A stretch of DNA of 64,000 nucleotides, taken from positions 992,001 through 1,056,000 of the forward strand of contig NW_024881599.1 of NCBI RefSeq assembly GCF_019059575.1, in the 5' to 3' direction. Positions 9,781 to 59,760 of the stretch are shown here, piece by piece (within the stretch, counting starts at the first letter, position 1; each line of letters opens with the position of its first letter). Under the pieces are notes generated by a model. The model was not told where the DNA came from, did no database searches, and saw nothing but the letters and a program-made list of their open reading frames with translations. This stretch comes from Amphibalanus amphitrite. Its lineage: Eukaryota; Arthropoda; Thecostraca; Balanomorpha; Balanidae. Made by a program: the position numbers and the translations under genes.

Positions 9781-9782
9781 AT

Positions 9783-24982: not shown

Positions 24983-25995
24983 AGCATCACATCTTTGAAG
25001 TAGGAGATAGGCAGATAACTAGGTGAAACACATTTATTTGTTATAATAATTTAATCACAACCATTGGCGAATAAGCAATTCTTTTAAATCCAGTCAGACA
25101 TACATACAGTGAAATACATGCATCCGGACACATATGATACTGGCTTTTAAATGTCGGTGCAACATTTGTCAAAGTCCACCCTGCAGTGACATTTAATTCA
25201 CGGAAGAGTGACGGCCAACAAAATGTTATTCCTGATTTTTCCGGTTAGATTGAGGCACACATGAACTTCACATGAACATCCGCATATGTACAATTCACAC
25301 TTAAAAACTTTCGAAAAGATGTACTTTAAAAATGAGCAATCGGAACTTTTATGCCTAATGCACGGAGCGAAATGATCTCGCACATCTCTTGTTATATTTT
25401 CTTCTAATCTTAAGTGATTCATATCACCTTGTAGTCTTCTTAGGACTGCAAGGCGTCCCTATAAGCACATATACTGGGAAAGATATGCTTGTTTTACATA
25501 AAGTGGAAATCATTCTAGCTTACAACATATGCTTAGTCCCTAACTGGGTTATATGCTATTTGATGTTATGTTATGTTACATACCATACAGCTTTATGTTC
25601 TGTAATTGAGGTCCGCAATTCAGCCAAAATGGAAAAAAACGATCTTTGAACTATCTAATCAAATGGATGTAGAAAACTGGATAAGCATTAATGTTACCAC
25701 TATAAGTCATTTTTATGCGTCATACTTTTTATCAATCGTAATCTTCACAAATTATGCAACCACGTTATGAAATGGACAAACGTCAAAGTCACAGCACATG
25801 TGCCGGTCACTTTTCACATTTTGTTTCGGCCTGCACGTGCGATGCTGGGGGCGCGGCGCGTGTATAAGGACCTCGCCCTACTCACCCCTAAATGTCAATT
25901 CGTCTGTCAGTTAGTGGCGCATGCCTAGTGCTGCGTAATGGCCGGGCCTCTGACGTGGCGTGGGCGGCTTCTGATTGACACACCCTCCGGATTCG
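24983..25995. other. Upstream region of the cysteine-rich gene; no gene recognised
   Basis: Short frames only. A TATAAGG at about 25863 precedes a TCAGTTAG initiator-like word near 25906, which could mark an alternative transcription start for the gene beginning at 26055. Confidence 0.4.
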
Positions 25996-26001
25996 GGTGA
26001 G

Positions 26002-26007
26002 TATATA
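26002..26007 (+). promoter_or_regulatory. TATA box of the cysteine-rich modular gene
   Basis: TATATA lies 53 bases before the ATG at 26055, which would place transcription start near 26030 and give a very short 5' UTR. Inferred from sequence and spacing only. Confidence 0.55.
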
Positions 26008-26054
26008 GCGGTGAGCTGGCGCAGCCACGGCAGAGCTCTCTGAGCGCTATCAGG

Positions 26055-26109
26055 ATGCGTCTCCTGTCGATTCTCCTGCTGCTCTGCGCGGCGGTACTCG
26101 CCGCACAAG
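26055..26109 (+). CDS. Cys-rich gene exon 1 (signal peptide)
   Basis: The ATG opens 18 codons of hydrophobic signal sequence, then a phase-1 G before the donor GTAGGG. Cleavage is predicted around the AAQ-A junction. Confidence 0.8.
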
Positions 26110-29100
26110 GTAGGGGTGTAAGGACGGGTACCTATAGGGCGGAGTTCGGCGTTTTTTTTTTAGGAGATTGGACACGCCATACTGTGCGGCGGACTTGGTG
26201 TGATTTGGATTGGACTTGCGTTTGATTGTGCAGAGGCTCTGTATTTCGGTAGGGATATGGCAATCAACAGCAGCCTACCGAAGTTGAAAGTTCGTGAATC
26301 CCAAATGTGATCCGGACGAGCTGCTCGTGGCAAGTAGCCTTATTGTTGCGATACCACAACTAGTTTACAGCTGATGCTATATTGAAGCACATGAGTCCGG
26401 CATTATCGTAATATGCGTCCCGATTTTTTTTTTTTATTGAGGGGGAAAGGAACTTTCTCCGGGCTAATGATAACAAAAATCCTAAACGATATTGTTCTTC
26501 AAGGATAGCTTGTTAGGTATTGAGTGCATTGATAGCTAGCCGCACTGATATAAAAGTTTTGTGAACGTTATTAGGTCTGTCGAAAATATCTCATCCTTCT
26601 ATGTAGTCCTCAGATGCCGTCATCCAGTGACTTATGTACAGCTACTTGCCAGCGCTGATTCGTGAGGACATCTTAGCTAAGAGTGTGATCTGTTTCAGCG
26701 GACATCGTCAAGTACCGGCCATGCAAGCACGTCGGCCAGTCCTGCGGATCGTACAATAAGAACGTCTGCGTGCGGTGTCCCAAGGGCGTGGGACTGTGCT
26801 GTGTCGCCCGACCAGTGCCCGGTACGTGATGACGTCCACTTCACAGCCTCCCCGGCGGTCTCACACACAGCCCCACTCAGTATGGTGACTCACTCCTTGC
26901 TCTTCCTGGATCCCTTCGAAATTTTACCTGACAGTCTTCTTTCCATCAAATTGTTAGCGTTTTTGTTACCGACCAGCGACCAGACTAATCACTTCTTAAT
27001 CACTATGTGATGGACATCAGACATGAAGACCTTTTACGTCATTCGACGTCATGCAAAGTAGGTATAGGTACACAAAATTCCTGTAAGTGTAAACGCATAT
27101 GTTAACTGTGCACGACAGGTTGGGTGAGTTTGACTATTCACAGTGTGAAATCTACATCATGCAGCTTTGCGCCTAATTTCGTTATTGCACCATCACAGTC
27201 TAACCGCGCATTGTTGTCACAATTCCAGTCTACCACTGCAAACATCCCGGTCAGAAATGCGGCACTGGAGTCTGCGGCAGGTGCAAGAGGAACCCCAAGC
27301 AGCTCTGCTGCAACCCCCGAATCCGACCGAGGCCCAGACCCATTAGTAAGCATGCATCAGTCCGAATTTTTATTGCTTAGGTCAAGTTTCAAACGCAGCA
27401 CACGTATGACAGCAGCCTGCATTGACGGGATGTTAGCAGGAACAGTGACCTGTCACGCTCGGCCAGTGTGGGTGGGGGGTGGGGGGGGGGGACAACTCAT
27501 TTTCGATCAGTAAGGCGGCATCCCCGCGCATGTTAAATATGCGAGCTCCAAGTCCTTCTTCGAGTTGCAGCTTCGATGACCAAATATTAGCGCCGTATTC
27601 CACTGAGAGTCCGCTTCTGTCAATAATAATGAAAAACAAAATAAACACAGCAGTTCACTTCACGTAACAAAAAGAAGCGAAAGGGTGCACTCTCATAGTT
27701 AAACTACGAATCTATTCAAGCTTTTTTCTGGACGGTATGCTGAATACTGACACGTACATATCATTCGTTACAGTTGAAAAGTGCACGCGCATTAATCAGA
27801 AATGCGCCTATGGAGTTTGTCGCAGGTGTCGGAAAAACCCCAAGCAACTCTGCTGTATCCGCAGGAGGCCTAGGCCCGGTAAGTACCCAGACAAAATAGT
27901 CGTTTTCACGACGGCCATCTGGTACACATTTGGTTCACATCTGGTGCAGATTAGGTGCAGATTTGGTCAAATTAGGTTCAGTGTATCTCTTAGTAGCTAT
28001 CAGCTAGGGTTGCACTAATTGCTTATATGCCTGCTTTGTCATATTATCAGAGAGCATCATCGATTAAAACACTGAAATAAATTCATAAAATAAAGACATT
28101 TGCTGTAAAAGAGATTAGGTGCAGATTTGGTCAAATTAGGTGCACTCGCCGGATAGCCCGTCGTGAAAACGGCTAATGTGAACATAGATATCAATTAACC
28201 TTAATAAGTATACGCCCTTCCACAAAGTGCATAAAGAGGATCCAGTCACTATTTCAAATTTCAATAAAAATAATCTCGAACAGCTCTTCGACAGCAGAGA
28301 CACAACTCGCTCAACCAAAAGTGGAAAAAGTTACCCCGGCCGCGCCGGGGTCGGCTGAAAGTTACCCCGGCCACGGCCGGGGTGGCCGGGGCAGGTTCTC
28401 CACCCATGCGCTCAACTGGTATCCTAGCAGAGAGTATGTTTTAGGGCCTTGGCAGAGAGCTTACAAGTGATACATGCACAGTTGGATGAACTAATGAGAT
28501 CGACCGCTGCCCATTTCGTACAAACGAAAAACAACAGGGAATGGGGCGTATAATCAGAAACCAATGCGGAAAATATGCATCATTAATCAATTAGAGTGCA
28601 CGAAGTAAATTTGAGGCTTTGGATCATGTTGTCATTTATTCATACCGTCAAATGCCGGTGTAAAAACGATGGGTTACATTCGAATACATTTCTTCCTTTC
28701 TAGCGAACCATATGTATACGACAAGAATGAAACTCGCATTTGACGGACACTGTTTTGTTTCAGTGAAGTGCACGCAAGTTGGCAAGAAATGCCGCCGAGG
28801 TGTGTGCAAAAGGTGTCGGAAGAACCCCAAACGGCTCTGCTGTGTTCGCAGGAGGAGGCCCGGTACGCAAAGAAAAACAATACAACAAACGCCTTGTATT
28901 TGAAAATAGGCAAAATATACCGAAGCGTCAGCTACAAAACTACCTTGCTCTGTTAATTAACCGCTCATTGTTATGTTTCAGTTAAGTGCTTGAAGAAAGG
29001 CCACAAATGCCGACGCGGTGTCTGCGGAAGGTGCCCGAAAAACCCCAAGAAGCTCTGCTGTATCCGCAGGCGCCGGCCACGCAGATCGCCCAGTAAATGA

Positions 29101-31275
29101 GCCCAGCCTATGACATAGCCTTATGGACATAGCCTTTATTTATCCCGTAAAACCACAAACAGGCACAGTTCTCGCTTTGAACTGCTGCTGAAATAGTTAT
29201 AAGTTGGAAGTCTTTTTGCGACACAGTATTTTTTTTTTACAAAAAAACAAACAAATTTGTGATAATCTATTTCACTTGAATACCATTGGACACAAAGTTG
29301 CTTTTTAAAACTGACCATTCTTTTCTTGCAGTTGTAAAGTGCAAGCAGGTTGGTCGGAAATGCGCCTATGGAGTCTGTGCCAGGTGCCGGAAAAACCCCA
29401 AACAACTCTGCTGTATCCGCAGGAGGCCTAGGCCCGGTAAGGACATGCATAGGCGAACCGGTTGAAAAAGAAAACTTTTTTATTCGACTCTTCCTTTAAA
29501 TCAAAATGTGTTCTCCATCAGGTGGATTGAAAATGTTCTATTCGTTTCAGTCCAGTGCAAGCGGATCGGTCAGACCTGCAGACACGGAGTCTGCGTCCGG
29601 TGCAAGAACAACCCCAAACGGATCTGCTGTCAGCGCCGCCGGCGACGGAGGTCACTCGGTAAAACACAATGACCTAGCTCCTCTAAAAAATAAAAATGGG
29701 ATAAAAAATAAAATAAAATAAAATATAATAAAATAAAATAAAATAAAATAAAATAAAATAAAAAACAACATAAAATTATGTTAAGAAATACGTAACTAAA
29801 GAGCGCACTCCTTCAAAGAAACAAAAGCAATCAGTGAGTTTTTATATTGTACTAATCAAGTGGTAGCTCGGCGATAAATCGATAAATCGATAAATAGTGT
29901 CGTGGTAGAGCGGATCACACTAAACGTCGATGTGTCTGTAACGCCACACATTTCCGCACTGTAGCTGAGCTGTCTATGTTCCGTTGAGGTTTGCTGTCAG
30001 TTGAAGGCCACCTCATGGACAATATGTATAAATCGTGTGCAGTGTAGGTACTATGTAGGCATTACTGTTGAAGTGTTGACATGCTAATATAACGTGCGAT
30101 GAAATAAAATAAAAGGCTAAATACAAAACCAATTTAAAAGTCAATGATAAAACATAATATTATTAATATTTAATCATAATAGCTCCTCCCATCCAGCGTT
30201 TGTGCCCATATAGGTAGTGCAACAACTGCTACCAATGAACACTGCTGAATGGATCCAAAACCAAACTAAGCCACCGGTTCTGGTTTCAGCCCAGTGCAAG
30301 AAGAGATGTAGAGGTTACGACAGGTACTGCACCCGTCGCGGGTGTCCCAGAGGGTACAAGGGCGGCTACTGCTGCCGCCGGCGGGTCCGTCCCAGCACAC
30401 TGAGTGAGTGACATAGTGGTCCACACTGTGCACCACCATTGACTAACTTAAAGAGGCTCTAAAAAATCACAACGCTATTGATGCCATTCTTATCATGATG
30501 TTTAATCTAGGTCAAAACATTGGAGGCAGTGTGCTAAAAGAAAACGTATAAGCATGAAAGATCACTGCGAGGAATGTATCCTGCTAATTGAATGCACTTA
30601 TTGCTGAGACCGAACCAAAGACCTCTTTACAGGTCACCTTCAGCTCGTTTCTCCCAGACAGTTCACTTTTCGTCCTTTCTGACGTTTGTTGTCTCCCGCC
30701 TCAGAGCAATGCAAGGCTAGGTGTCGGGGCCGCTACCAGTACTGCAGCACGTCCGGATGCAGGAAGGGCTACAAGGGCTACTGCTGCCGCACGCGTCGCA
30801 ACATCTCCATCCGTGAGTCTTTTTAAACATATACCTACCTATTGTCTATTGACCTTATTATTTTTTACCAAACACATTCTTGGAGTGCATTAAAGATGCA
30901 TATAAAAGCCAGCCGGAAAATTTTATCAGCTTTCAACTAACTCATGTGTCAATACATATATCGCTAAGATTTATTTCCTTTTGAACAAAATCCTAAGCTG
31001 TGCGATCGCCGATCCTAAACAATAAACAGCCATTAGCCGAGCTGGATCTTAGAAGACGATGCACACAGTATGTACCTTTCCTCTGACATTCTCGTCTGCT
31101 TGGCTTATCCACATGCGTGATGGATGTCATAGATGTTATGTTCCACCTTTCTGATTCCCTCTTCTCGATTCCAGATGAGTGCCAGAAGACCTGCAGAGCT
31201 GGAAGCTACTGCACGACTAAATGCCCTAAGCACATCAGGGGCTACTGCTGTGTGCCCAAGTACTACAAGGGCTAA
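26055..31275 (+). CDS. Secreted protein of ten tandem cationic six-cysteine modules (11 exons)
   Basis: I assembled eleven exons from consensus splice sites. They join into one 1146-nt frame (381 residues) with every intron in phase 1. Exon 1 encodes a signal peptide (MRLLSILLLLCAAVLAAQ). Exons 2-11 each encode one module of 33-41 residues with six cysteines ending in CC. Modules 1-7 follow C-x6-C-x4-C-x2-C-x6/7-CC (x7 in the second gap of module 1), with a GVCxRCxxNPKxLCC core. Modules 8-10 follow C-x3-C-x5/6-C-x3/4-C-x7/8-CC with a GYCC-type end. Arg/Pro-rich linkers such as RRRPRPG separate them and make the protein very basic. The terminal CC recalls beta-defensins, but the spacing differs from the textbook defensin, WAP, penaeidin and inhibitor-knot patterns, so I assign no family. 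A host-defence or extracellular structural role is inference. A TATA box precedes it and AATAAA follows at 31789. Alternatives are a precursor cleaved at basic linkers or a matrix/adhesive protein. Confidence 0.8.
26699..26821 (+). CDS. Cys-rich gene exon 2, module 1
   Basis: Acceptor TGTTTCAG and donor GTACGT. The module spacing is C-x6-C-x7-C-x2-C-x6-CC, the most diverged of subfamily A, with a long second gap. Confidence 0.8.
27229..27345 (+). CDS. Cys-rich gene exon 3, module 2
   Basis: Acceptor AATTCCAG and donor GTAAGC. Spacing C-x6-C-x4-C-x2-C-x7-CC, with core GVCGRCKRNPKQLCC and an Arg/Pro tail. Confidence 0.8.
27774..27878 (+). CDS. Cys-rich gene exon 4, module 3
   Basis: Acceptor TCGTTACAG and donor GTAAGT. 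Core CAYGVCRRCRKNPKQLCC. Nearly identical to exon 7 in both DNA and protein, including the donor. Confidence 0.82.
27899..28173. mobile_element. TA-flanked MITE inside intron 4 of the Cys-rich gene
   Basis: The inverted ends are G(T/C)CGTTTTCACGACGG and lie between TA dinucleotides (27897-27898 and 28174-28175). The interior holds repeated GGTGCAGATTTGGTCAAATT phrases. Tc1/mariner-type MITE, 275 bp. Confidence 0.65.
28330..28402. repeat. GC-rich hairpin/short direct repeat in intron 4
   Basis: GTTACCCCGGCC occurs twice (28331 and 28370), each followed by a self-complementary CCGGGG arm. Likely a small foldback in the transcript; function unknown. Confidence 0.5.
28764..28862 (+). CDS. Cys-rich gene exon 5, module 4
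   Basis: Acceptor TTGTTTCAG and donor GTACGC. Spacing C-x6-C-x4-C-x2-C-x7-CC with core GVCKRCRKNPKRLCC and tail VRRRRPG. Confidence 0.82.
28982..29092 (+). CDS. Cys-rich gene exon 6, module 5
   Basis: Acceptor ATGTTTCAG and donor GTAAAT. Core GVCGRCPKNPKKLCC, then a basic tail. If the donor is skipped the frame ends at a TGA two codons later (29098-29100), so this exon could also serve as a terminal exon. Confidence 0.8.
29332..29436 (+). CDS. Cys-rich gene exon 7, module 6
   Basis: Acceptor TTCTTGCAG and donor GTAAGG. Core CAYGVCARCRKNPKQLCC; near-duplicate of exon 4. Confidence 0.82.
29551..29658 (+). CDS. Cys-rich gene exon 8, module 7
   Basis: Acceptor TCGTTTCAG and donor GTAAAA. Core GVCVRCKNNPKRICC followed by an unbroken run of six arginines. 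Confidence 0.82.
29700..29763. repeat. (AAAAT)n microsatellite
   Basis: About a dozen AAAAT/AAAT units in intron 8 of the Cys-rich gene. Confidence 0.9.
30290..30403 (+). CDS. Cys-rich gene exon 9, module 8
   Basis: Acceptor TGGTTTCAG and donor GTGAGT. First subfamily-B module: C-x3-C-x6-C-x4-C-x8-CC. Unspliced reading stops at TGA after two codons. Confidence 0.8.
   Translation, partial: PSARRDVEVTTGTAPVAGVPEGTRAATAAAGGSVPAH
30705..30812 (+). CDS. Cys-rich gene exon 10, module 9
   Basis: Acceptor CGCCTCAG and donor GTGAGT. Spacing C-x3-C-x6-C-x4-C-x7-CC, with a GYKGYCC end shared with module 8. Confidence 0.8.
31175..31275 (+). CDS. Cys-rich gene exon 11, module 10 and stop
   Basis: Acceptor CGATTCCAG. 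Spacing C-x3-C-x5-C-x3-C-x7-CC, then a short tail VPKYYKG and TAA at 31273-31275. It lacks the basic tail of the other modules. Confidence 0.8.
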
Positions 31276-31788
31276 AGTCACCGTTAACAGCACCACCAGC
31301 TCATCGAAGGCCGGATATCCAGGGAGGTGTCCGACAAACCTCGATGATGATGCAAAAAGGAGCCGTCCGACGTGCTTTTAATTGAAAGTGTGTTAAAAAA
31401 GGTACTTTCCATCGTCATAAATTGCGAAGTTCTTTTGAAATACATACGGCAATACATGAGCAAAGCAAGGCACGCAAGAGTTTTTCTGTTTGGTGTTCCA
31501 TCAAATCACCATGTTTTTCGTTTAAAAAATACCCAAGATACGTAACATATCGTTACTAAACCAGTGAACATAAGGATTTAGATATGGGTGTAACGAAGGA
31601 GCATAAGGCCAAACCGCAATGTTATTTCAACGAGTACTACTTGATTAAGCTACAACGTGAAGCAGCGCAGCTTCCTCGAAAAAGGTGAAATGGATCAGGA
31701 TCACAGGAAACCGAAACCCAATCAAAGGCGCATGAGAAGTAGTAGGTGATATACATGCATCATTACATGCAATGCACGATTGAGTCGA

Positions 31789-31794
31789 AATAAA
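31789..31794 (+). terminator. Candidate polyadenylation signal of the Cys-rich gene
   Basis: AATAAA 514 bases after the stop codon. It is the first clear match I see downstream; usage is inferred. Confidence 0.4.
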
Positions 31795-33835: not shown

Positions 33836-33899
33836 GAGAACAGGACGGTAAGAACCAAGGCCGTATATCAGACAGGCAGAAAATCACTGGCGGAGACAG

Positions 33900-34301
33900 C
33901 GCGGCGCCGTCTTTACCAAACCGGCCTCTGACTTCAGCGGCCTCCTGACCCATCCAATGTCACCGTATCTCCATAATGGAGAGAGCCCCGTCCCCGTCCC
34001 TAGGGTCGCTTCCCCTCCCACATTCCAGAGCCCATCCGGTCCCCGGCCGACCCCTCTCGACCCTCCCCATCCCCCTGGCCGGCCCCCGACGACCGTCCCT
34101 GTCATTACGTCCCGACCTGTCCGTCCGTCACCGCCGGACCTGTCACTGCGCCGCTCGCTAACATTAGACTCCGCCAATGGGTCAAGGTGTGCGGCTCAGG
34201 TGCGGGCCGGTGCCGGCCGGTGCGCCGTCTGGAGACTGCGACGCCGACAGTGGTCGCTAGCCGGCTCCGTGGGGCAGCCGCGGTGCGGGCGAGGTGCAAA
34301 A
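33900..34301 (+). promoter_or_regulatory. CpG-rich promoter/5' UTR of the BMP gene
   Basis: Strong rise in GC and CpG content just before the ATG at 34302. The frames open in all phases here (for example 33957-34751) reflect composition. No clear TATA box. Confidence 0.5.
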
Positions 34302-34566
34302 ATGCGGCCCCGGTGGCTGTGGCTGCTGTGTGCGCTGTGGGGGGCGGTGTGCCCCGAACACTCGCCCATCTACGTGGACAATCACAAGGGTCAGACGGTG
34401 GCTGGAGAAGAGATATCCGATGTGGACCGAGCGGAGATCCAGGAGGACCTGCTGCTGCTGCTAGGGCTGCACCGGCGGCCGCGGCCCGCCTTCCAGGAGG
34501 TGCAGAGCTCGGCGCCCCAGTTCCTCATGGACATCTACAACAGCATGGTCGACGACGAGGACACAG
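34302..34566 (+). CDS. gbb: BMP gene exon 1
   Basis: Signal peptide and N-terminal prodomain, ending MVDDEDT plus a phase-1 G before GTGAGG. The ATG is the first in frame after the GC-rich leader and sits directly before the signal sequence. Confidence 0.88.
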
Positions 34567-37500
34567 GTGAGGAGTCCAGTGGTCCTCAGGTGAAGAGTCT
34601 CAGACTCTCAGCGGTCCTCAGAAGAGGAGTCTCAGACTCTCAGCGTTCCTCAGGTGAGGACTCGCAGCCATGCTGTGGTGAGGACGGGTCTCAGCCGACA
34701 GCCGTCCTGTGGCCACTGGCAGGTCCAGGGCCACGCGGGGTCATGAAGTAGGTAGTGGGTACCCTGTGCGTGACTCGATCTGATGGTCTGTCAGTGCAGC
34801 ACGCGAACTTGAACTACATCCACTTTCTGCGGCCTGCCAGCAGTCAGTTCCATGAAATGTCACCCCTCAAGCACGTGAAAATGCCGGACGACGATTCTCA
34901 TTTCTATGGGCGTAGGAAACTCACAAAAAGTGTGTGTGGGGGGGGGGGGGAAGGGAGGGCAGCGAAACTTCAATGTCACTTCGTGGAAGCCCCAATACCC
35001 TATGAAGAAATTCGTTGCAGTTTTTCGCTCATCTCACCTTGCTGAACCGTTTCCTGCTCTTAGTTTTGTATTTAAATCAAAAATAAAGATTTTTCTTAGA
35101 AAAATGGCTGAAAACTGGAGGGGGGTATGACCCCCGGTCCCCCTGTTCCTAGCCTATGCTCAACGGCACGGCCAGTAACCCATATCGAACTAAAAGTCAA
35201 AAGCATTGGGAGAGGCCGCGTGCTTTAGAAATCGCTACAGACCTTCACCAATATTTTTGGCGCTCCTACCCCCATGATCACATATATTCCGGTTTTTTCG
35301 AAATTCAAATTTTTTTGGATTTTTCGGCTATTATATTTATACAATCTATTTTTTTATTTCTGGGGGCAAAATCCCAAAATTTCGAAAATCCGAAATAGCA
35401 GTTTGTAGCCCTTTGATTCTACATATCTTATGGCTGAAACATTTTTTCTGTATCTCTAAAACTGTAGGCCTGAGAGCTCTTCCCGCGAAACCTTTTTTGG
35501 GTCGAAAATGACAGAAATGACGTCACTCTGACGTCATTAGTGGCCAACCTATCATAGCCTTTGGAAACTTTTTGGTCACAATGTGCAAAAGCTATTCACG
35601 GGGGGTACCGAAAGTTTGGTGACGATCGGCGCAGCGGTTCTGGAGATATATATCGGAAAAACTAAAGGGGGGCAAAAAAAATGTCCCCCCCCCCACCGCC
35701 TGGAAGGTTAACCCTCGCTCGTATAGGGGGTTTGAATGGACCCCCTCGGTTTTTCGTGAATGACTCGCGTAAAAAGCGGCCGATCGCGACACTTTTCAGT
35801 ACCCTCGAGATGATCAATTTTACACCCACCCTGAAAATTTCATGACCCTGACCCAAATAACCTTTGACCTGTGACCTACTTTTTGAGACCATGTTTGGCC
35901 GGAATCGCGATTGGGCGTATGTTGGCTCGCATTAGCCGCGCTTTTGCAGTCTTTTCGTGGTTTGAAACCACGAAACATGTGAAATGATGTTGGTCCCATG
36001 CATTAGGGTGGGTGTCAAGGTCACCTGAAGGTCAGGTCAGGTCAGTGACCTTTGATGACCTCGGTTCATTTTTCGAGTTTTACATGTTGCTAGGCCAGTT
36101 TTTGGAGCTGATTTCGAATTTATGAACATTTACGAGTAGTTGTGGTGCCTTCGTAAGATGTTACGAAGCCTTCAGAGGCGGTTGACACCTACTACGAATA
36201 CCCGGCAGGACCCCTACTGGTTGACCTGACCTGACCTGACCCGACCTGGCCTAAATGCATGAATACATCATCTGTGCTCAAAACTTATATGATATTCGTG
36301 ATCAGCACCCCGAAATACCCCATAGCAGCCACACTTTGCGACGTTCTAACTTTTAACAGGTCCCGATTTTCCCACTTTTGGGTCATTGACCTGACCTAGA
36401 AGGTCAGCCAATGACCTAGGACCTTAAAATTCGTCATTCGTCATCGTCACGGGCAACACGCTCGCTGTTTCCGCAAAGCTCTAGCTCGATCAGGGGCGAA
36501 ACGGCAAGGGGGTCCAACGGACCCCCCCCCCCCCATACGTTCGCGGCTGGAAAAACACCAATTACGGGCGAGGGTTAAAGTGTGTCAGGTCTCGATCACG
36601 CTACATTCAGAAATACACCTTTTCACGGCCAAATATGGAAATAACCAAATATAGTTAGTGCACACAGTTCAGAAACAGTGCAAGCGATTTCGACGGTTGG
36701 GCATAGTGCACTGCTAATTCGGCCGAATGCATGATATTCAGTAATAGTGCACACGTTTCCAAACAGAGCAATCAATTTAGAAGATAGTGCGTTTAAATTC
36801 AGTGGACCGTAGGCTCAATTTCGCCAGAGTGCACGGTTTTGTCATGTGACATGATATTTGGCGTCCCGCAAAGCAATTTAGGCGATGTTCAAGTGAATTC
36901 TCTGCTGGATTGGGAAAATATTTTGAAAGCCCCCTATCGGTGTGTCAAGAGCAGCACGAAACCTGGTCAAAGAGCTGCCGAAATGCAGCCTAAGCTCTCA
37001 GGAATTTATCTTATCGTAAATCTCACTCAAGAACTCGGTGACACGGTCACGTGGCATTCAGGGCTTCTGAATCGGCTCCATAACTTCGTTGCTGGTTCAA
37101 AAAGATCAGGAATGCTATAGATTTTTGTTATCGCCTTTCAGTATCGTGGGGAATTTAACTGAGCGAAGCCGAAACACAGGGTTTGGTGTTTGTTTAATTT
37201 TTCAAATAAACAAACATAAACAAACTGTTCACGAACAAATGTGTTCGCGAACAAGTGACGTCATCGGTCAAATTTTGGTAAACAAACAACGAACAGTTCG
37301 CGAACGTTCATGAACTGTTCGCGAACACGGTAAAGAGGGGGTAGATAAGACCCCCTCCTTAGCCATTTCGCTCCTAATTGAGATAGAACCTTGCGGAAAA
37401 AGCCAGCGTGTGCGTCAGTACGAACCACAGCGATTGGCATCCGATTTCAAGGTCTTACACCAACCGATGACCCCTGAGGTCAGGTCAAGTGTCACAAAGT

Positions 37501-40500
37501 ATGGGTTTGGTTTTTGGTAAATAACTTCTCCACAAATAGTGGCAGAGCCGCGATTGTGGCACCATCGTGCTCGTCGTGGCCAGGCGCTTCGAATGATATA
37601 CTTTTTGTTTGGATTAGGTCTTTTTAGGATGTTGCCCTCAGGTCAAGGCCAGGTCAAAGCCCCTCGGGTCACAAAGCTCCATGAAGGATGTCATGCTGCA
37701 TATCAATCGATTTGGCAGTTCTTTCTGAGTCCATTGAAGGCTCAACCGACTCGCTAGCTCAATTTGATCGGAAGTTATTAGCGAAAAGCTCCTACTGCAC
37801 CTAACAACCTTATTGGCGTCCTATATGACGTCATGCAAGGTCTGAAATGCACAATTTAAGCCTCAGCGTTGCAAGAATAATTATGAATCACGATTCCCTG
37901 TGCTTGAGATATGACTGGTGCATTTTTCGCATGTAAAACATGCCTGCAGTCATGTCTGCACCGTATGATAACAATTGCTCGAAAGATATCAGAAATGATG
38001 ACTTGTTCATGAACGTTCACGAACGTTCACGAACTGTTCGTGAACAGAGAATGGTTGGTGAACATATGACCTTGAATGCCAAAATTCGTAAACTATCAGA
38101 TAAACAAACAAACATTGTTCACGAACTGTTCATGAACAAATATACAAACACCAAACCCTGCGAAACAATACCTATTGCTCACGCCGAACTTTAAAGCACC
38201 CGACCAATAATGTGCACTATGTGTTACCTATATGTTTGAAACCATATGAAACATCAAATACCCTCTACCTTTTGCATCAAGAACAGTGCAGCTGGTTATG
38301 TGACTTTTTTTGCGTCGCTGACCGTCTACGAATGCCATTGGAGGCTTAGGTAGCGTGAAATGTCTAAAAATGTTATTGCTTATTAATGCAATGCCGGACG
38401 TACCGAACAGTGCCTAAATTACATACATGCAGCACCCCGAAATTGAAACGACCTGACGAATAATGTGCACTATGTCTAATATGCCTGAATTTGGGCCACT
38501 TTTACCTGCACTACCGCGAAATGGTGCCGCGATTCAATATACGAATGCACTATGCCGTAATGTCGAAATCGCCTGCTCTATTACTGAAATATGTGCACTG
38601 CCGCCTGAATTGGGCGTAAAAAGGTGCAGAACTTCTGTTTGTGTTTGCCTGGTTAGTGCACCAGAAATCAGTCTCGAATCGGTCACGGTCTCTGTATGGG
38701 CGTCGATGTCGCTGTCACACTGTCGTCTCGTCCCACGCCATTGTCTCGGACCCAGGAGTTTGTCTCGGTTCCATTATGTGTCAGTTTTTGTTGTGGTGCT
38801 GGCCAGGCCTGGCCCTTCGCCAAGACTAAGGACGCTCATGACTGAGCCACGAACTAACAGTTCACCCACCGACCGCCAGGTGACCTCAAGCTGGACCCAG
38901 AGGGCGTCGGCAGTGCCTGGAAGGACTTCAACATCACCACTGTCGACAAACAGGTCATCGACGAGAGCGACCTCATCATGAGCTTCATCAACCACGGCAG
39001 CAAGCTGTTCAAGGAGCTGGAGCTGCCGCGGAGCCAGCTGCTCTGGTCAGTCCGTCGGCGGGTCAACGCCCTTAGAAAACAAATCAGCCGTTCCAGAACG
39101 GCTGCTCAGTGCACAGCGTTGTTCCACTTCAGATCAATTTGAACCTGAGAGCATCCGGTTCTATCCTCAGGACCAACCATCTTACGATGGTTTGGGATTA
39201 TACGGCGTTCAGAACTCAGCGCAGACATGATATAACGCTTAGGTACACCAAAATCATACGTTCAGCCCATCGATCGGATGCACGATTCAACCATCCATGG
39301 TGGTTTACTTGTAAAACTTTTGAATCACTTTCAAGCATATGAATTTCGATGAGCAAAGATATCTCTTCATGTGTACCGTACGCACCTTTAAACAAACGAC
39401 CCCTCAAGCCCTCAGTGTGACCTGGGCCTCGTTTCATAAAGCGAGTCCGTAACTTACGCTAGTTTTTGGGCTTGTATTGCAAGTGCATGTTAAACGATAA
39501 ACTTATTTCACCTTCTCCCTTCTGTTCTTGCTTGCAAGATAAATAAATTCAACGATTCAAACTGTCGTCATATTCGCTTCACATGCACTTGCAATACAAG
39601 ACCAAAAACCGGCGTAAGTTACGGACTCGCTTCATGAAACGAGGCCCTGATCGCAGCTTGTCTTTGTCCAGGTTCGACCTAACTGAGGTACCGATGGACG
39701 AAAACCAGCTGGACACCAGTCTACGGGTGTACCAGGGGTACGCCGAGGACGCCCTGTTCGACTACCAATCGGTGACGCTCAGGATATTCCAGCTGATCGG
39801 AGGTGAGCGGACGATTGTCGTCGTTGTTGTCGTCGTCGTCGGCGCCGCCGTCGTTGTTGTTGTTGTCTTTGTAGTTGTTGCTACTGCTGCTGTTGTGTTT
39901 GCATACGTTATTCTTAACTCTAACTCTTCACTCTTCACTTCACTCTTCACTCACTCCTAGTTGATGGCATGTAGACGTGGAACGGGTTGCATAAAATAAA
40001 CATGTGTTAGGCTAACAACTGAAGGAAGGGCAAAATGCCCGACCCGTACAATGGCATTGGCTATTTATAGTAGCAGTTGGTACGTACGTTCCGAGGATGC
40101 GGAAGGGTGCTATGCTAGTGTCTTGGCCGCCGGCCGGTATTCGCTAGGTTAGCGACATAGCACCTGCCGGGTGTAGGCTGCTCGGTACTCAACATCCCAT
40201 ATCACCATTTTTCAACGACTCAAATTTATGTTCAACAAAATCTTACCACTGAAAGTGGAGCTGGCGAAGAATGGTAGGTGGCGCCCAGCCAGCAATCCCA
40301 CTCCGTTCCCGATCGGGATTTTTGGACTCAGCCCGCACCACCCCGATCGGGACCGGAGTGGGACGGGATTGGGAAATGAGACACTTTGTACGGGCTGGAA
40401 CGGTCCGGATATCCCAACCTATCCCGCACGGCCGGTTGGGAGATCCCGCACGTATCCGGACCGCCTTATGACGTTTTAACAAGCGCTGAACTCCGATCCC

Positions 40501-43500
40501 GATCGGGATTCCCCAAATCTCCCCGTACAACCGGTTCGAAAATCCCGCACGCATCCGGACCGCCTTATGGCATTTTAACCCTAGAACGCCTAGGGGGGGG
40601 GGTTGTATCAACCCCCCCTGAGGTTTTTTCGAAGTGCACGCTAAACGGCTTGTCGTAGCGGGCTGAAATTTTCAATACCCTCTGGGGCAACCTTTGCGCA
40701 TCTTTTGCCGAAAAAAAATTGATCGGGTCATGTCAGGTCACGGAGTTATGACGTCATAAAGGGAACAACCTCCGGCCAGATTTACGCTAAATTGGAGATT
40801 GCTTCACATTGGTATAAATGCCGACTGACCTGACACACTGATGGATTGTTTTAGAACCATAACTGGCTGATTTGACATTGGCACAATGTCCGTTGACCTT
40901 TTCAAGGTTACTAAAGGTCAAGGTCAGGTCAGTGACCTCGGTTGACCTGTAATGACTTCTTGCACTTGTATGCCTTTTCGGGGTATTTTGATGCCCTGAA
41001 TTCGAATTTGCTATCCATTTCAGGCATCGTCGGTTGTTTCTTGTAGTTCATTTTGGGTCAGGGTCAGGTCAGTGACGTCACACGCCTGACGTGACCCAAT
41101 GCACAAATGACCTTGCAGACTTCCGATGCTCCCAACGCATCATTTTTAGAGTTATGACATCGAAATACGCACCAAACGATAGAGAATTGATCAAGGATCA
41201 CGATAGTGAAAGTTTCAAGTCGATATCTCTTACCGTTTTGCCGCAATCGGCGCGGAAATCTGAAAAAGTTAGATTTTTCCGAAAATTTGACCTTTGACCG
41301 GTCATAAGTAGGTCAAATGTTGACCTAGGACCAAAAAATATACCACCAATCGCGAGATCTCGTTGAGAGCAATCCGTTGGTTTTTTCCGCTAAGCTCTAC
41401 GACCTTCCGTTTCGAAACGCCAGGGGGGGGGGGGGTCGTAACAACCCCCCCCCCTGGTCGTTCGTGTTATGAGAAATGGCCTGGTCGTGCGAGGGTTAAC
41501 AAGCGATGAACTCCGATCCCGATCGGGATGTCCCAACTCGGCCCGCACGGCCGGTTTGGGAATACCGCAGGCATCTGACATATTAACCGCAGTCTTATAA
41601 CCCCAGATTGTTGTTATGCAGATGCGACCACTTTGCTTGCGCCACCGCAACCCCCTCGCCTCTTCATTATTCTCCAACTCAACCTTTATAATGCCTGCAC
41701 GACAAAATGAATTACATTGGACACTGAAATATATTCACAAATTTACTGGTTGCACACAGGTCAAATTTTCACAAATTCACAGCCTGGCCAGCACATTCGT
41801 GGCGTCGGCCATCATCTTAGCGCCGCTGCAAGGCGCTGGCACAGCGGACTCACTTCCGGTGTTCACAGTCATTATAGCAGGCCTGCGCCTTGTTCGTGTC
41901 GGCTCCTCTGCGGACAGTGTGTCCGTCTGCCGTCACGAGCTTCAGAGAGCCACCGCGAAACTAGACGGTTGGCATCTGGTCGGGCGGTTCACCACTGTGC
42001 GAAGAGAGCATCTGAAAATGACCAAGAGGTTATTAATCAAAGTCTGGGACACACTAAAAATCACTAAGAAATAACCCACATCTGACATTTCACATGGTAT
42101 GCCTGGTAATTCAGGTTTCAAACCTACAATGCAACCATTAACGACACTTGACAATGAGACCAAACATCTTCTGTCCATGATAACTGATCAAACATGCGAC
42201 AGCACGAGTGTAGTTCACATGCCGTACAACCACAACGAACATAACAATTTCTATTACCTATAGCTTTCCCGCTCCCTACATCACGGATGAAGTGTGCACT
42301 ATACTCACCCTGTTCTCAAATACGGACTGATTTCTCTGCAACGACAACAGTTGAACCGACCGCTTGCTAGAGCCAGTTCAAAAGCAATATCCTGAGGCAG
42401 CAGCTCAAAGGAGGGATCGACACTTGACCAACGCGGCAGCTAGACTGGCCGCTGCGCTCAGAGGACGCGTCTGCCTGCACGCGGCCCATCTGATTGCTTT
42501 TCCAGGCTTTCTGGGCCACCGGATATGGTGCCCGAAGCGCCTTCTCAGATCGGTTGGGATAACAACGTAAATCACAAGCCTGTCTAAACATTGGATTCGA
42601 TTGGGCTATCCGTACCGCGTCCCAACCGATTAAGCATGCGGTCCGGAAATCCCGAGTCGCCCCTACCGCCGGCCATCGAGGTCCGGTATCGATTGGGACA
42701 ACCCAAGCCTACCCAACCCTGTAGGGACAAGTCGGGACATCCGGAGCCTATCCCGACCGTCCCCAACCGCATCCCGGACGAATTGCTGGCTGGGCGGGTC
42801 CTTGGCGGGCATCGAGAACCACAGCCAGCAGCTCAATTATTCAGACTTAGTTTCTGATACACAATTCAGAAAAAATAGCCACTAGGAGACCATTGCATTT
42901 TTTTCTCCAGCATGTACAAAGGCACAGGTCTCACGGGTTTTAGCGGTAGGTTTTGCACCTAGAAAATTTAGTGTACGTACTTCAGACTGTATCTTCTCGT
43001 CTTAAGCTTTTAAGTGTTGAAGATGCGATCGACTTGTTGGTTCATAAGCCGGCCTTGATCGCGTAAAATGGCTTCATCGTAGATCGATTAGTTTCTGAGA
43101 TATGACCGAAAATGTAAAGGTGCAAAACCTACCGCTTAACCTCGCGAGAGCCGTACGTGTCTTTGATTAAAAGCATTTATCCTTGAAGCGAACCGTATTC
43201 AAAGGACAAATGTTCTGCCCTGTAAAACATAATATTTGCTTTAGAATCACCTACTGTGCGTCATCCATTATCATTTCTTATTGTTAGCGTCGTTTCAAAG
43301 TGCCTTTGGAATTGTGAACGTATGTACATTACACAAAAGCTCATATAATATTCAGTATGTGCCTTGCAACTTGCCCAATTCTGCCGACACGGCAGTAGAC
43401 CAAACACGCTGGTAGTTGAGCGCCTCTGACCTTGCTGGTTCTAGTCTATTGACGCACACTTACCAAACAATGGCTAAAATCAACAAAGGACGGAATAATA

Positions 43501-45885
43501 CCGGCACAATTTTAGATGAAATAATTCCGAATTGCGGTTTCTGATGACATTTTCTTCTGACATTACTTTATGTGCAGGCACAAATACAGCAATTTTTGTT
43601 GTTTAATCGCATTGGCTTTTAATCACAAGATACCGTAGGCGACAGGTGCAACTTGCAGCGTTATTCCTGACAAAGTGATCGGCACATCTGTCTGTCTGGC
43701 CTGTTAGGTTCGTATGCGTAATGCAACATTTCATAAGGCTCTACATTGAGTGCATGTTTGAGGTGCCGATATATCGACCTCTCACCGCGCGGGTTATATT
43801 TATCAGATTTTCTGCCTGTCTGCCTAATTGAATGATTGACTTCATCCGTCTATCTCCGCTGTCTGTATTTATTTAGTTGAACATAACCTGATTATCTACC
43901 TTCCACCCAGTATATGTCTGTCTAACGCCGTGCACCTCCGCCCAGGCGAGGGCGAGACGCGCCCGGACGACATCCAGCTGAAGGAGGTGGGCGCCAGGGT
44001 GCTGGAGCCCGGCTACGTCGGCTGGCTGACGTTCAACGTGTCCAGCGCCGCAGACCTGTGGCGCATGTTCCCCCACTCCAACCTCGGTCTCTTCATGGAG
44101 GTCAGTGCTGCAGGCCGATCTTACAATTACAAATATATAGGTACACAAAGTGGATTGGGAAGGGTCTCGCTGAGGGATAGCTATTCAGCAATAAATGGGT
44201 ATTGATATGACTCTTTCCGACGACAGCAGATCAGTCGCTAGTTGATTGGCAGGACTCGCCGTCCGTTTAGTGCCTGATCCATGGTACGGATTAGCCTCAG
44301 GCACAGCCTGAAGCTATAGCACAACCGGGACTTGGCCAAAAATGGCTCCTCTGAGAAGACACACGGAACCGCCTTAGTCTGAAGCTTGACGCTGACGCCC
44401 CTTCAGTGCGCCTCTGCAATTGAGTTGAGTGTCAATCAAATAATATGGCAGAAGACGTACAGATGAGAAACAAGATGAATGGTATTTTTATCGAGGGCTC
44501 TTTGTAGCGATCCGGCTAAGGCCGGCTTGTGGCTTTTTCGCGGTGGTATGGTATTACCATTGCGAGAACAACTAGGATCTGCTGGATGATCCTCGATAAT
44601 GGCAGTGACGATGCTGCTGCCTGAACTCGGGGAAATTCCAGATGGGCCACGCAGGAGAACGAATTAATGTGCGGGTATTCGAGCATAAAATTCTGAATCT
44701 TCCACCAACGATTATAAGACCCTGCCGGCTAACGACCTCAGCGACCTTTAAAAATTAAAATAATTAATTTGACCTCATCCTCCCAAAACGCTTCGTTGAA
44801 CCAAGCACAGGTAATATGCAATGCAAAAAAAACTGTAATTACTAGTCCCCACTAAAATCTAAAACATAGCCTTATGCTAATGAATTAAACAAAAAAAAAA
44901 GATGAAGAGAGATCACTTCAGTGACGATCATCAGCTATGCTGAATTCTACAAAATGCTTATCATGTTTTTAAAACAGGCAAGTTGCTGAGTGCTGACCTT
45001 TACCAACAGCTTAGCTGTTCTGTATACGGTGTCCAGCTTCCACAATCGTCCGTGAACGAAGATGTTTACAGACACTTAAAGCTGCAAAGCCGTCTCGCTT
45101 TATGACCTTTGGTGACCTCTGTTGAGCTGGGTGTCTCCGGATGATCCCCGAGGGCCCTAGCCTCTAACACCTCTCATCTGACCTTTGCTAGCCTCTGGTG
45201 ACCTAGGTGTCCCCAGGCGAGCTCCAAGGACTCTAACGTGTCTCATCTGACCTCAGCTGACCTCTGGTGACCCATGTGTCCCCAGGTAACCTCCGAGGGC
45301 CCTAACGCCTCTCATCCGACCTCTGTTGACCCGGATGTCCCCAGGTGACCTCCGAGGGCGGAGAGCAGCTGGTACCGGGTCAGGTCGGACTGGTGGACGC
45401 CTACGGAGAGCAGGCGCGCCAGCCGTTCATGACTGCGTTCTTCAAGCAGCAGCAGTTGAAGCGTCCGCTGCCGCGTCTCTCCCGCTTCAAACGGTCCCCG
45501 AACGGAAAACGGTCAGTACTGGGAGCGCCCTTGAGTCGGTCAGGCGGTGAAGAAACGGGCTGATTGGTCCATTAACACTCGTCAGGCCAGTCCCTTTTCA
45601 ATAATGCGACCGGCCAGCATTGACCAGCTCAGGTAAGGCCAGCATGTTGGTATGATTAGTGCAGCAGTCGGCACGCCCAAAAACCCCAATAAACAAACAA
45701 TGCATCAACCCCCGTCTGCGGCTTTTCAGGGGCAAGAAGAAGCGCAATCGCAGCAACTCCCAGACGAGTTCGTCCAGTCTGAAGGACTACATACAAAAAC
45801 AGGAGTTCAGCGTCTGCCAGAAACGCAACCTGTACGTCAGCTTCCGGGACCTCGGCTGGCAGGACTGGATCATTGCACCCGACGG
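34302..45885 (+). CDS. gbb: BMP5-8 / glass-bottom-boat type TGF-beta ligand, last exon(s) not found
   Basis: Six exons (34302-34566, 38880-39045, 39672-39802, 43946-44100, 45345-45511, 45730-45885) join without frame conflict into 346 codons. The N-terminus is a signal peptide ([13 protein letters not shown]). The prodomain shows the BMP5-8 signature HRRPRPAF...[12 protein letters not shown], then [23 protein letters not shown] and [16 protein letters not shown] and GKKKR are basic cleavage sites for a proprotein convertase. The mature domain opens with the first conserved Cys in [18 protein letters not shown] and ends at WIIAPDG, the usual exon border. The ligand would be secreted, dimerise and signal through BMP receptors. 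The remaining cystine-knot exon (YYCxGEC...CGC) was not found up to base 64000. Coding DNA is GC-rich compared with the flanking repeats, and a CpG-rich stretch covers the promoter. The family is clear; gbb orthology rather than another BMP5-8 paralogue is inferred. Confidence 0.88.
34900..35290. other. Intron 1 repeat debris
   Basis: Contains G-run/C-run pieces near 34928 and 35118-35140 and runs into the inverted partial TTAA-type element at 35270. No CDS. Confidence 0.4.
35270..35707 (-). mobile_element. Truncated TTAA-type element (relative of 46130-47321)
   Basis: Matches 46130-46580 in inverse orientation, from ATATATTCCGG to the G-run/C-run hairpin and CCGCCTGGAAGG, ending at TTAA 35708-35711. 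The other end is missing. Confidence 0.7.
35712..36574 (+). mobile_element. TTAA-flanked MITE, family 2-like
   Basis: TTAA lies at 35708-35711 and 36575-36578. The ends are CCCTCGCTCGTATAG and inverse-like TACGGGCGAGGG. G-run/C-run hairpins with GGTTTGAATGGACC or GGTCCAACGGACC loops. AGGTCA tracts at 36018-36060 and TGACCTGACC at 36220-36250. The TTAA at 35708 is shared with the truncated element on its left. Confidence 0.78.
37177..38160. mobile_element. hAT-like element with GTTCGCGAAC palindromes, 984 bp
   Basis: The ends CAGGGTTTGGTGTTTG and CAAACACCAAACCCTG are inverted repeats. CGAAACA lies immediately outside each end, a 7-bp match, perhaps an 8-bp duplication with one loss. Both subterminal zones are packed with GTTC(A/G)CGAAC palindromes. 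The centre (about 37330-37500) is a decayed TTAA-type fragment with a G-run/C-run pair and AGGTCA words. No transposase. Confidence 0.7.
38880..39045 (+). CDS. gbb: BMP gene exon 2
   Basis: Acceptor CCGCCAG, donor GTCAGT, phase 1 in and phase 2 out (TG of a Trp codon). Encodes the prodomain segment with [20 protein letters not shown]. Confidence 0.85.
39672..39802 (+). CDS. gbb: BMP gene exon 3
   Basis: Acceptor TTGTCCAG, donor GTGAGC. Completes LW-FDLTEVP and LRVYQGY of the latency-associated domain; phase 1 out. Confidence 0.87.
39818..39895. repeat. (GTT/GTC)n trinucleotide repeat right after BMP exon 3
   Basis: Interrupted GTTGTC/GTTGCT run starting about 15 bases inside the intron. Confidence 0.8.
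40290..40578. repeat. ~101-bp repeat with CCCGATCGGGAT palindrome, also at 41500-41580
   Basis: Copies carry CCGATCCCGATCGGGAT, GCACGGCCGGTT and CGGACCGCCTTATG. The array is interrupted by the TTAA element at 40579-41495 and continues at 41500. A diverged relative lies at 42590-42780. Confidence 0.7.
40579..41495. mobile_element. TTAA-flanked MITE inserted in a tandem repeat
   Basis: TTAA lies at 40575-40578 and 41496-41499. The left end is CCCTAGAACGCC, the right end inverse-like TCGTGCGAGGG, with subterminal G-run/C-run hairpins. The neighbouring repeat unit has an uninterrupted TTAA at 40476-40479 in the same context, which serves as a paralogous empty site and shows that TTAA was duplicated on insertion. 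AGGTCA and TGACCT tracts at 40915-40955 and 41055-41090. No CDS. Confidence 0.85.
41600..43945. other. BMP intron 3 sequence, no gene recognised
   Basis: Two overlapping + strand frames at 41616-42074 (152 and 116 codons) lie in different phases without recognised motifs. A diverged copy of the GATCGGGAT repeat is at 42590-42780. From 42800 to 43945 nothing can be assigned. Confidence 0.4.
43946..44100 (+). CDS. gbb: BMP gene exon 4
   Basis: Acceptor CCGCCCAG, donor GTCAGT, phase 0 out. Encodes [17 protein letters not shown], the conserved end of the prodomain core. Confidence 0.87.
44101..45105. other. BMP intron 4, no gene recognised
   Basis: No recognisable repeat ends or coding exons apart from the 69-bp repeat that follows. 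Confidence 0.4.
45106..45372. repeat. 69-bp tandem repeat containing copies of the exon 5 splice acceptor
   Basis: Three to four copies with period about 69 (CTCATC at 45173, 45242 and 45311). Each carries TGACCTCTG-like words and GTGTCCCCAG followed by a copy of the first bases of exon 5 (CTCCGAGGGC). The last copy is the acceptor actually used, at 45343-45344. Confidence 0.8.
45345..45511 (+). CDS. gbb: BMP gene exon 5
   Basis: Acceptor GTCCCCAG, donor GTCAGT. Encodes [17 protein letters not shown] and the basic RFKR site that separates prodomain from mature ligand; phase 2 out. Confidence 0.87.
45730..45885 (+). CDS. gbb: BMP gene exon 6 (start of mature domain)
   Basis: Acceptor GCTTTTCAG, donor GTAAGT. 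Holds a second basic site GKKKR, a Ser-rich spacer, then [18 protein letters not shown] and WIIAPDG. Only the first cystine-knot Cys is encoded here. Confidence 0.9.
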
Positions 45886-46129: not shown

Positions 46130-47321
46130 CCTTCCAGGCGGTGGGGGGGGGGGCATTTTTTTGCCCCCCTTTAGTTTTTTCGATATATCTCGAGAACCGC
46201 TGCGCCGATCGTCACCAAACTTTCGGTACCCTCCCGGGAGCAGCTAGCGCACATGGTGACCAAAAATTTTTCCAAAGGCTATGATAGGTTGGCCGCTAAT
46301 GACGTCAGAGTGACGTCATTTTTGCCATTTTCGACCCAAAAAAAGGTTTCGCGGGAAGAGCTGTCGGGCCTACAGCTTTAGAGGTATAGAAAAATGTTTC
46401 AGACATAAAAGGTGTAGAATCAAAAGGGCTACAAAACTGCTATTTCGGTTTTTCGATTTTTTTGGATTTTGACCCCCAAAAATCAAAAAATAGATTTTTT
46501 GAATATAATAGCCAAAAAATCCAAAAAGTTTTTTGAATTTCGAAAAAAAAAACGGAATATATGTGATAGCCCCTACCGCCTTCTACCTACATACCAAATT
46601 TGAGATCGATACCTCTTTTTTTAGCCAAGTTATAGCGAAAAACTGTTCAAAATTGATGACGTCAAATTTTCAAACTCAATTTTTAGCAATTCTAGACCTC
46701 GTAGCGCAAAACAAAGACCACCATTAGACTCCCCGTGGCAAGCTGCATCGAATCGATACCCATTTTATGCAAAAATATCAACTTTGAAATTTGACCTTTT
46801 TTGACCTGACCTTGACCTGACCTCCACCAGAAAGTGACCTAAACCGTACCTGATGGTCTTATAACCAACACCATTGAGTTGGAAATGAAAAACTGGCCAT
46901 AAAACATGCATCGCATAACCTTAGTAAAGTTGGGCTCATGTGGTGACCCTTGGTGACCTTTGGTGACCTGACCTGTGACCTGACCTTGTATGAACAGTGA
47001 CCTCTAATAGCAACATATATACTAGACAACTGACGCCTTATCGCTGATTTTCGACAAAATGCGTTTTACTCGGTGTTATAGCGCTTTCCCTAGAAGCCCC
47101 GTGAACGGTGAAACATTTTATCTTTGACCTGACCTGTGACGTCATCGGTGACCCCGAGGTCAATGAAATTTGGTTTCCCTCAACAAATTTGACAGGGCTA
47201 TCGAACGCCGTTTGAATTTTCCGGATCCGTCCAGTAGTTTCGGAGATACGGGGGGGGGGCAAAAAAGTGCCCCCCCCCCACACCGCGCGGAAGTTGGCTG
47301 GTAGGCCCACCGCCTGCCGGG
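46130..47321. mobile_element. TTAA-type MITE with one decayed border
   Basis: The right border is intact (CGCCTGCCGGG then TTAA 47322-47325). The left border reads TTTTACCTTCCAGGCGG, where the inverse end at 35708 has TTAACCTTCCAGGCGG. G-run/C-run hairpins at 46141-46167 and 47250-47279. TGACCTGACC tracts at 46800-46830 and 46955-46990. No CDS; the 47038-47310 minus frame is a shadow. Confidence 0.72.
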
Positions 47322-47327
47322 TTAAGC

Positions 47328-47544
47328 GTGCTAGTAATTTTAATTAGCGTTCATGTTACTGGACTACTTACATACGAAGTCAGGGGTAAACCTTGTTGCC
47401 GTGCGTTTAGCCGCTTTAATTTCTCATCCGGCGAAACTTGTAATCTAATGAAAGTCCTGAGGCACTGTGGGTACCTGAGATTATCACCATGTCGTCGGTA
47501 TTTAATTACGCTGCGTACCTCCGGGTCTGCGACCTTCAGGCAAC
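47328..47544. other. Host sequence 5' of the LINE insertion
   Basis: Open in the frame of the following LINE ORF only by chance. The LINE coding part begins after the target duplication at 47533-47544. No product recognised. Confidence 0.4.
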
Positions 47545-59458: not shown

Positions 59459-59760
59459 CATGCGTGTGATTCGAAGACTGACGGAACGGCGCCGCTCTTC
59501 AAGGATTTTCTTTTACGTTCGTTCTTTCTTCTGGTTGTTTGATGAAAGTCTTCCTCACGGAAATGGAGCTCACAGACACCACAGTGATCTGGGTTCCAAG
59601 CTGAGTCATTACGTCCTATCGCCTGCACCCAGCGAGCGCGTAACTCTTTGTCATTCGGAAAGGTAAACAAAGAAATAGTACGCTGAACTAGCTTGTTTGC
59701 CTTCTCTGCCTTTGTAAGCGCGTAGCCTGAACGACATAAAGGAGCGGCACACTTAACCAT
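59459..59760 (-). CDS. THAP domain exon of the P-like transposase
   Basis: Start chosen at the ATG that puts the first zinc Cys at residue 4, as in other THAP proteins; an ATG 17 codons upstream is possible. Ends at GCATG before GTGAGT. Intact in itself. Confidence 0.78.

Follow-up and report, generated by a model that had tools for sequence, protein, structure and literature searches.

A gene of ten exon-encoded, cationic six-cysteine modules in the barnacle Amphibalanus amphitrite: a candidate secreted multi-module effector

The stretch of DNA analysed here (64,000 nucleotides, referred to as the window) corresponds to positions 992001-1056000 of contig C102 in the genome assembly of Amphibalanus amphitrite, which comprises 807.55 Mb in 2,644 contigs. 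It contains a gene on the forward strand (26055-31275) composed of eleven exons with AG and GT sites present at all of them, and the joined open reading frame (ORF) encodes 381 residues: one signal-peptide exon and ten six-cysteine modules, one module per exon. A mechanical scan for phase 1-1 exons with six cysteines recovered nine module exons, whose reading frame is completed by the first and last exons. Since exon 1 ends one base into a codon and the nine internal exons (2-10) have lengths that are multiples of three, all ten introns are phase 1. A first-pass annotation made from the sequence had described this same arrangement of eleven exons with good splice sites, one signal exon, ten module exons and phase 1 introns throughout, and both the scan and the re-derived join agree with it. 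The features of the gene are as follows.

26002..26007, forward strand: TATA-like box, 53 bases before the ATG; recognised by position only, with a putative function
26055..26109, forward strand: exon 1, predicted signal peptide MRLLSILLLLCAAVLAAQ, recognised by hydrophobicity
26699..26821, forward strand: exon 2, A-type module, spacing 6,7,2,6,CC
27229..27345, forward strand: exon 3, A-type module, spacing 6,4,2,7,CC
27774..27878, forward strand: exon 4, A-type module, near-twin of exon 7
28764..28862, forward strand: exon 5, A-type module
28982..29092, forward strand: exon 6, A-type module, linker end furin-like (RPRR/S)
29332..29436, forward strand: exon 7, A-type module, intact in the window copy; GT donor and first cysteine gone on contig C902
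29551..29658, forward strand: exon 8, A-type module, linker RRRRRR/S where A modules give way to B modules
30290..30403, forward strand: exon 9, B-type module, spacing 3,6,4,8,CC
30705..30812, forward strand: exon 10, B-type module, spacing 3,6,4,7,CC, linker RTRR/N
31175..31275, forward strand: exon 11, last B-type module, spacing 3,5,3,7,CC, and TAA stop
31789..31794, forward strand: AATAAA, first match to a poly(A) signal after the stop; weak evidence

The signal peptide was judged by a hydrophobicity cut and by eye, and because the first exon is signal-like, the protein is predicted to be secreted. Within 25900-31400 the ATG of exon 1 is the sole ATG start above the hydrophobicity cut, which fits one gene better than a row of small ones. 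Intron retention was considered as a source of additional modules and dropped, as read-through past the donors of exons 2-10 yields tails of 2 to 46 residues and no further module.

The mature part of the protein contains 60 cysteines, 116 lysines and arginines and only four aspartates and glutamates, with a computed isoelectric point of 10.6. Its modules measure about 32-40 residues each and are joined by basic, mostly arginine-rich linkers. All ten have six cysteines and end in CC, and two types can be told apart, A in exons 2-8 and B in exons 9-11. The first-pass annotation had given C-x6-C-x4-C-x2-C-x7-CC as the cysteine pattern of the array; this spacing is common to the six modules of exons 3-8, exon 2 carries a 6,7,2,6 variant, and exons 9-11 follow C-x3-C-x5/6-C-x3/4-C-x7/8-CC. 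The three spacing patterns occurred in none of 40 simulated 64-kilobase (kb) sequences (first-order Markov), as opposed to ten matches at the locus and two elsewhere in the window; the two off-locus matches in a looser spacing listing are poly-cysteine frames. The sequence R-x-[KR]-R not followed by proline is found in three of the nine linkers, after exons 6, 8 and 10, and these furin-like linkers part the chain into exons 2-6, 7-8, 9-10 and 11. Exons 4 and 7 share 87.5% identity over 120 nt (27764-27883 and 29323-29441); the similarity stops no more than about 10 nt from the splice sites, as gene conversion or the recent duplication of an exon would leave it.

In all 15 comparisons among exons 3-8, synonymous divergence (dS) exceeds non-synonymous divergence (dN); judged by their substitutions, the exons are coding and constrained and, as a set, under purifying selection. 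The first-pass annotation had proposed predicting the structure of a single module. An AlphaFold2 model of an A module, built on seven window rows, is a beta-hairpin with a mean predicted local distance difference test score (pLDDT) of 83. A public protein compared below with the window gene (P0002) was modelled from six rows with a mean pLDDT of 73, reaching about 90 in the last B module, where a short helix with the start of CxxxC is followed by strands. Comparison with solved structures (Foldseek, VIA-align) gave no usable match for either model, an absence which is not evidence against a family. The idea, raised by one alignment, that a single cysteine has "migrated" between the A and B types is not claimed, as another alignment and the models, with the third cysteine in a strand in both types, favour a plain one-to-one order.

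The entire gene is present again in reverse orientation on contig C902 (299,923 bp), to which all eleven exons map. For the surroundings, ten 10-kb stretches of C902 were compared with the window and with twelve 10-kb stretches of C102 (740-860k), and 26 matches were kept after dropping those below 400 nt or 88% identity. Twenty of these, spread over about 280 kb of C102, run in reverse order along the two contigs: one set lies around the gene (C902 36-55k, C102 1,026-1,013k), the other at the far end (C902 223-299k, C102 811-745k). We read the C902 copy as the other haplotype. In ten exons of this copy the splice sites and all cysteines are kept and 29 of 1041 nt differ from the window, whereas 194 of 3789 aligned intron bases differ; introns 1, 7 and 10 are longer on C902 by about 1.4 kb, 0.86 kb and 1.0 kb. 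Over the ten exons, the ratio of non-synonymous to synonymous differences per site (pN/pS) is 0.30 (14.5 synonymous on 232.5 sites, 14.5 non-synonymous on 778.5). Exon 7 differs in 11 of 105 nt: AT replaces the GT donor, apparently via a small deletion, and the first cysteine has become arginine. Its divergence has p values of 0.0005 against the other exons and 0.02 against the introns, both post hoc because exon 7 was picked out after the donor loss had been noticed. Since skipping exon 7 keeps the frame, the C902 copy can still encode a nine-module protein. In a tree of modules the two copies are sisters for seven of ten exons; exons 4, 7 and 9 are not resolved, so the tree was not used for history.

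Searches of 5.8 billion protein sequences yielded two distinct proteins, both hypothetical and from A. amphitrite, P0001 (FJT64_004221) and P0002 (FJT64_004513), one of the matches only at an expectation value (E) of 7.7. Since nothing but relatives of comparable length with exact words in common is within reach of such searches, their result does not show that the family is absent from other barnacles. P0001 has 309 residues and is 37% identical over 73% of the query; it contains four B modules and no R-x-[KR]-R site. P0002, with 128 residues, equals exons 1, 2, 10 and 11 at 125 of 128 positions, and its junction residue is the one that a phase-1 join predicts, a likeness that by itself places the window in A. 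amphitrite or a very close relative. With exons 1 and 11 fixed, three ordered exon subsets have the length of P0002, and the next best fits only 98 positions. A public gene model therefore fits the window gene without seven of its eleven exons, and the missing exons 3-9 could reflect annotation, a deletion haplotype or a real isoform.

With P0001 and P0002 as queries, three groups of matches were found in the same order on contigs C541 and C895.

First (long) locus: C541:42.7-50.1k, reverse strand; C895:155.6-160.3k, forward strand
Second locus: C541:74.6-81.9k; C895:116.8-110.2k
Third (short) locus: C541:95.6-96.1k; C895:100.7-100.3k

The first locus was read in its 3' part on both contigs and in its 5' part on C895, where a signal exon at C895:154104 (MKLLSLLALLCVAVLS) is similar to that of the window gene. 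Five places are matched 5' of the B array on each contig. The array itself has 11 B exons on C541 and seven on C895, both more than the four in P0001; all 18 exons have an AG acceptor, and the 16 that are not terminal all show a GT donor where homology places it. The ends of the array, including the first and last B exons, are 94.6% identical over 1364 nt and 94.8% over 713 nt between the two contigs. On C895 about 400 nt recur at +702; in eight bins, 399 of 400 bases agree, which looks like the signature of a recent tandem duplication or of an assembly repeat error. The second locus comprises 11 matched places on C541 and ten on C895, with five six-cysteine matches in the part that was read (C541:79300-82800), and the third has two places on each contig. 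A clear difference in module number is thus found at one of the three loci. The region C895:153300-160800 also holds cysteine-rich exons of other cysteine types (around 156191 and 157075), interleaved with A modules. The gain and loss of modules that had been anticipated from the symmetric exons is supported by the assembly, both in the loss of the donor and of a cysteine in exon 7 on C902 and in the 11 against seven B modules at the first related locus. The other route envisaged in the first-pass annotation, many peptide combinations through splicing, is a possibility.

Searches of family libraries revealed no named domain. Pfam had no credible match for the full protein and three modules with E limited to 1; with the limit relaxed to 10 and P0001, P0002 and two stretches of three modules as queries, only CBFB_NFYA (E 4) and DUF6248 (E 8) came up, both far under their cut-offs. 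Nothing credible was found in NCBIfam or, with single sequences and profiles, among PDB sequences, where weak matches to succinate dehydrogenase (E 1.1) and a conotoxin-like peptide (E 7.9) were taken as coincidences of cysteine spacing. The earlier remark that the module belongs to no family that could be named holds against these three collections. Likewise, the module is not described among the matches listed in literature searches on barnacle antimicrobial, defensin, cysteine-rich, cement and genome topics, modular precursors and FJT64 tags, a survey of titles and abstract openings that lies mostly outside subscription journals.

Three families of cysteine-rich peptides were considered and set aside. 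Crustins carry an eight-cysteine WAP domain (four-disulfide core), which the modules do not resemble, with six cysteines in all ten, a different spacing and no Pfam match at E up to 1. In CS-alpha-beta defensins the cysteines are arranged as C...C-x3-C...C...C-x-C with the last C-x-C in the final strand; none of the ten modules ends in C-x-C, and the C-x3-C of the B modules, which lies in a predicted helix, is a likeness of shape only. Beta-defensins and big defensins have six cysteines ending in CC, with about 9-14 residues between the third and the fourth, where the present modules have two (seven modules) or three to four (three modules) and no Pfam defensin match.

Multi-module antimicrobial precursors are a known kind, so "undescribed system", the wording of the first-pass annotation, is too strong; what the searches did not meet is this module and its layout of one exon per module. 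Like a multipeptide precursor, the window gene has a signal peptide followed by tandem homologous modules. The hymenoptaecin precursor of the ant Camponotus floridanus also starts with a signal peptide and continues as tandem modules, which are separated there by basic cleavage sites; the number of modules varies from one ant species to another, as many as 23 peptides in tandem having been deduced from a single ant genome, and amplification of antimicrobial peptides has been proposed (PMC3415428). In Camponotus, however, the gene has one intron only, within the pro-region, and the authors ruled out splicing as a source of repeat variation (PMC3415428), whereas each barnacle module has its own phase-1 exon and six cysteines, with a furin-like site in three of nine linkers; this comparison is by description and family libraries. 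Baramicin A of Drosophila, too, is a secreted antimicrobial precursor of modular build; furin sites separate its repeats, its copy number varies among flies and a truncation segregates (PMC9246212). It differs in the immune induction and antifungal evidence reported for it, and in the available text one six-cysteine module per exon is not described (PMC9246212). Among barnacles, the crustins AaCrus1 (PMC8877177) and PpCrus-SWD1 (PMC11678330) are secreted antimicrobial proteins, as is proposed here. PpRcys1 of Pollicipes pollicipes is a cysteine-rich, net positive secreted peptide with 12 cysteines and membrane activity in vitro, but it has 104 residues, a net charge of only +4.5 and, in the portion available, no described module array (PMC12195476). 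Identity with PpRcys1 was rejected, as its printed tryptic peptides are by eye unlike the window modules (PMC12195476). In sum, the plan of a multi-module antimicrobial precursor is already known, and the barnacle gene is set apart by its six-cysteine module, by the one phase-1 exon for each module and by the differing module number on paired contigs.

The remainder of the window contains a TGF-beta/BMP-type gene downstream (33852-44202, forward strand), two ORFs of which match the TGF-beta propeptide; part of the first of these (33840-34457) is present in order on C902. Retroelement pieces, probably non-LTR (lacking long terminal repeats), lie at 9765-11774 and 47238-48995 on the forward strand; their ORFs encode a reverse transcriptase (669 residues) and an RNase H (585 residues). 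On the reverse strand (56507-59820) a THAP domain is found near TNP-like RNase H and GTP-binding domains, a set which we take to be that of P-element/THAP9-type transposons. A Mos1-type helix-turn-helix at 55058-55582 (forward strand) scores 21.3 bits, just under the cut-off of 24.1, and is perhaps a mariner-like remnant. No Rfam family at gathering score and no transfer RNA were found in the window.

Taken together, the gene probably encodes a secreted, polycationic, disulfide-rich multi-module effector, antimicrobial and built of skippable exon cassettes. On balance we lean towards placing it in a small barnacle family of secreted, extremely cationic, disulfide-rich proteins arranged like beads on a string, whose polycationic modules would act as microbe-binding effectors. 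Each module would fold alone around a beta-hairpin that contains the third cysteine and the paired CC, B modules having a CxxxC helix as well, and the secreted chain may be partly cut at its three R-x-[KR]-R linkers. The modules could then bind anionic microbial surfaces and damage or agglutinate microbes, with avidity raised by several modules per chain or by a few multi-module fragments freed after exons 6, 8 and 10. Unequal crossing-over, loss of a splice site or skipping would alter module number without destroying the protein; because the internal module exons are frame-neutral, module number can change in this way and the array can turn over quickly. The differing module counts on apparent chromosome copies therefore point to a fast-changing secreted protein of the defence type.

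Several observations weigh against this reading. Charge, secretion and cysteine content are all that the antimicrobial step draws on, and a polycationic matrix or cement protein would look alike. Kappa-B-like motifs number five in the window, where chance would give 6.6, and the closest is about 9 kb from the gene. With furin-like sites in three of nine linkers and none in P0001, support for cutting into single peptides is weak. By the substitution counts, selection between the gene's two copies is purifying and not diversifying, which also speaks against an arms race by point mutation. The alignments behind the structure models have only six to seven rows. Instead of alleles, the contig pairs C902/C102 and C541/C895 could represent recent duplications, and repeat arrays can be misassembled. 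Of the 26 kept matches, six that may be repeats are off the diagonal (at C902 60k, 142k and 148k, two at 106k, and a second one at 223k). The C102 stretches compared stop at 860k and resume at the window, so the ordered matches cover the gene region and the far end and not the middle of C902.

The variation may itself form a repertoire at the level of haplotypes, in which individuals differ in the number and identity of secreted modules (ten versus nine here, 11 versus seven B modules at the related locus), multiplied by regulated exon skipping as the 1-2-10-11 model hints; we regard this extension as possible and quite tentative. If true, an innate effector would be diversified heritably and across the whole population through the gain and loss of entire modules, and not by point mutation.

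The main competitor to an antimicrobial effector is a structural or adhesive polycation of cement, cuticle or shell matrix, whose disulfide modules would bind anionic surfaces and cross-link and whose module number would tune length and not immunity. Variation in repeat number is expected in structural proteins too. The adhesive proteome of A. amphitrite includes a cluster of cysteine-rich proteins, and cysteine is, with lysine, among the amino-acid groups driving the clustering (PMC8371367). Against such a role, the modules have no credible sequence match to a solved structure, and the window proteins are not named in the available main text of PMC8371367 and PMC11293433, a weak argument whose scope stops short of the supplementary lists. 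A structural role is judged unlikely.

Less likely still is that regulated exon skipping is the main function, with one gene supplying a repertoire of module combinations chosen at the RNA level. The phase 1-1 internal modules would permit it, P0002 joins exons 1-2-10-11 in frame as the sole good fit among three subsets, and P0001 also has fewer modules than its own genomic locus; yet models of tandem-repeat genes are often wrong, and the ant hymenoptaecin study notes odd or split models as well as ladder artefacts of the polymerase chain reaction (PMC3415428).

That the extra copies are assembly duplicates or recent paralogues, with module number fixed in the population, is improbable: repeat arrays are error-prone, C895 has its near-identical repeat, and the off-diagonal matches and uncompared middle of C902 leave room for it, but C902 follows C102 in order in 20 of 26 matches, C541 and C895 hold the same three groups in the same order, and two divergent haplotypes are expected from the high diversity of the congener B. 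improvisus, about 5% at coding and about 20% at fourfold sites (PMC8270832).

A secreted multi-module effector thus remains the favoured reading of the window gene. To a major fouling animal the gene adds a family of six-cysteine modules that has no name and is unmatched among Pfam, NCBIfam and PDB sequences. If the arrays are indeed effectors, they would provide a clean case of innate-immune diversification through frame-neutral gain and loss of exons, visible between apparent haplotypes of a single genome.

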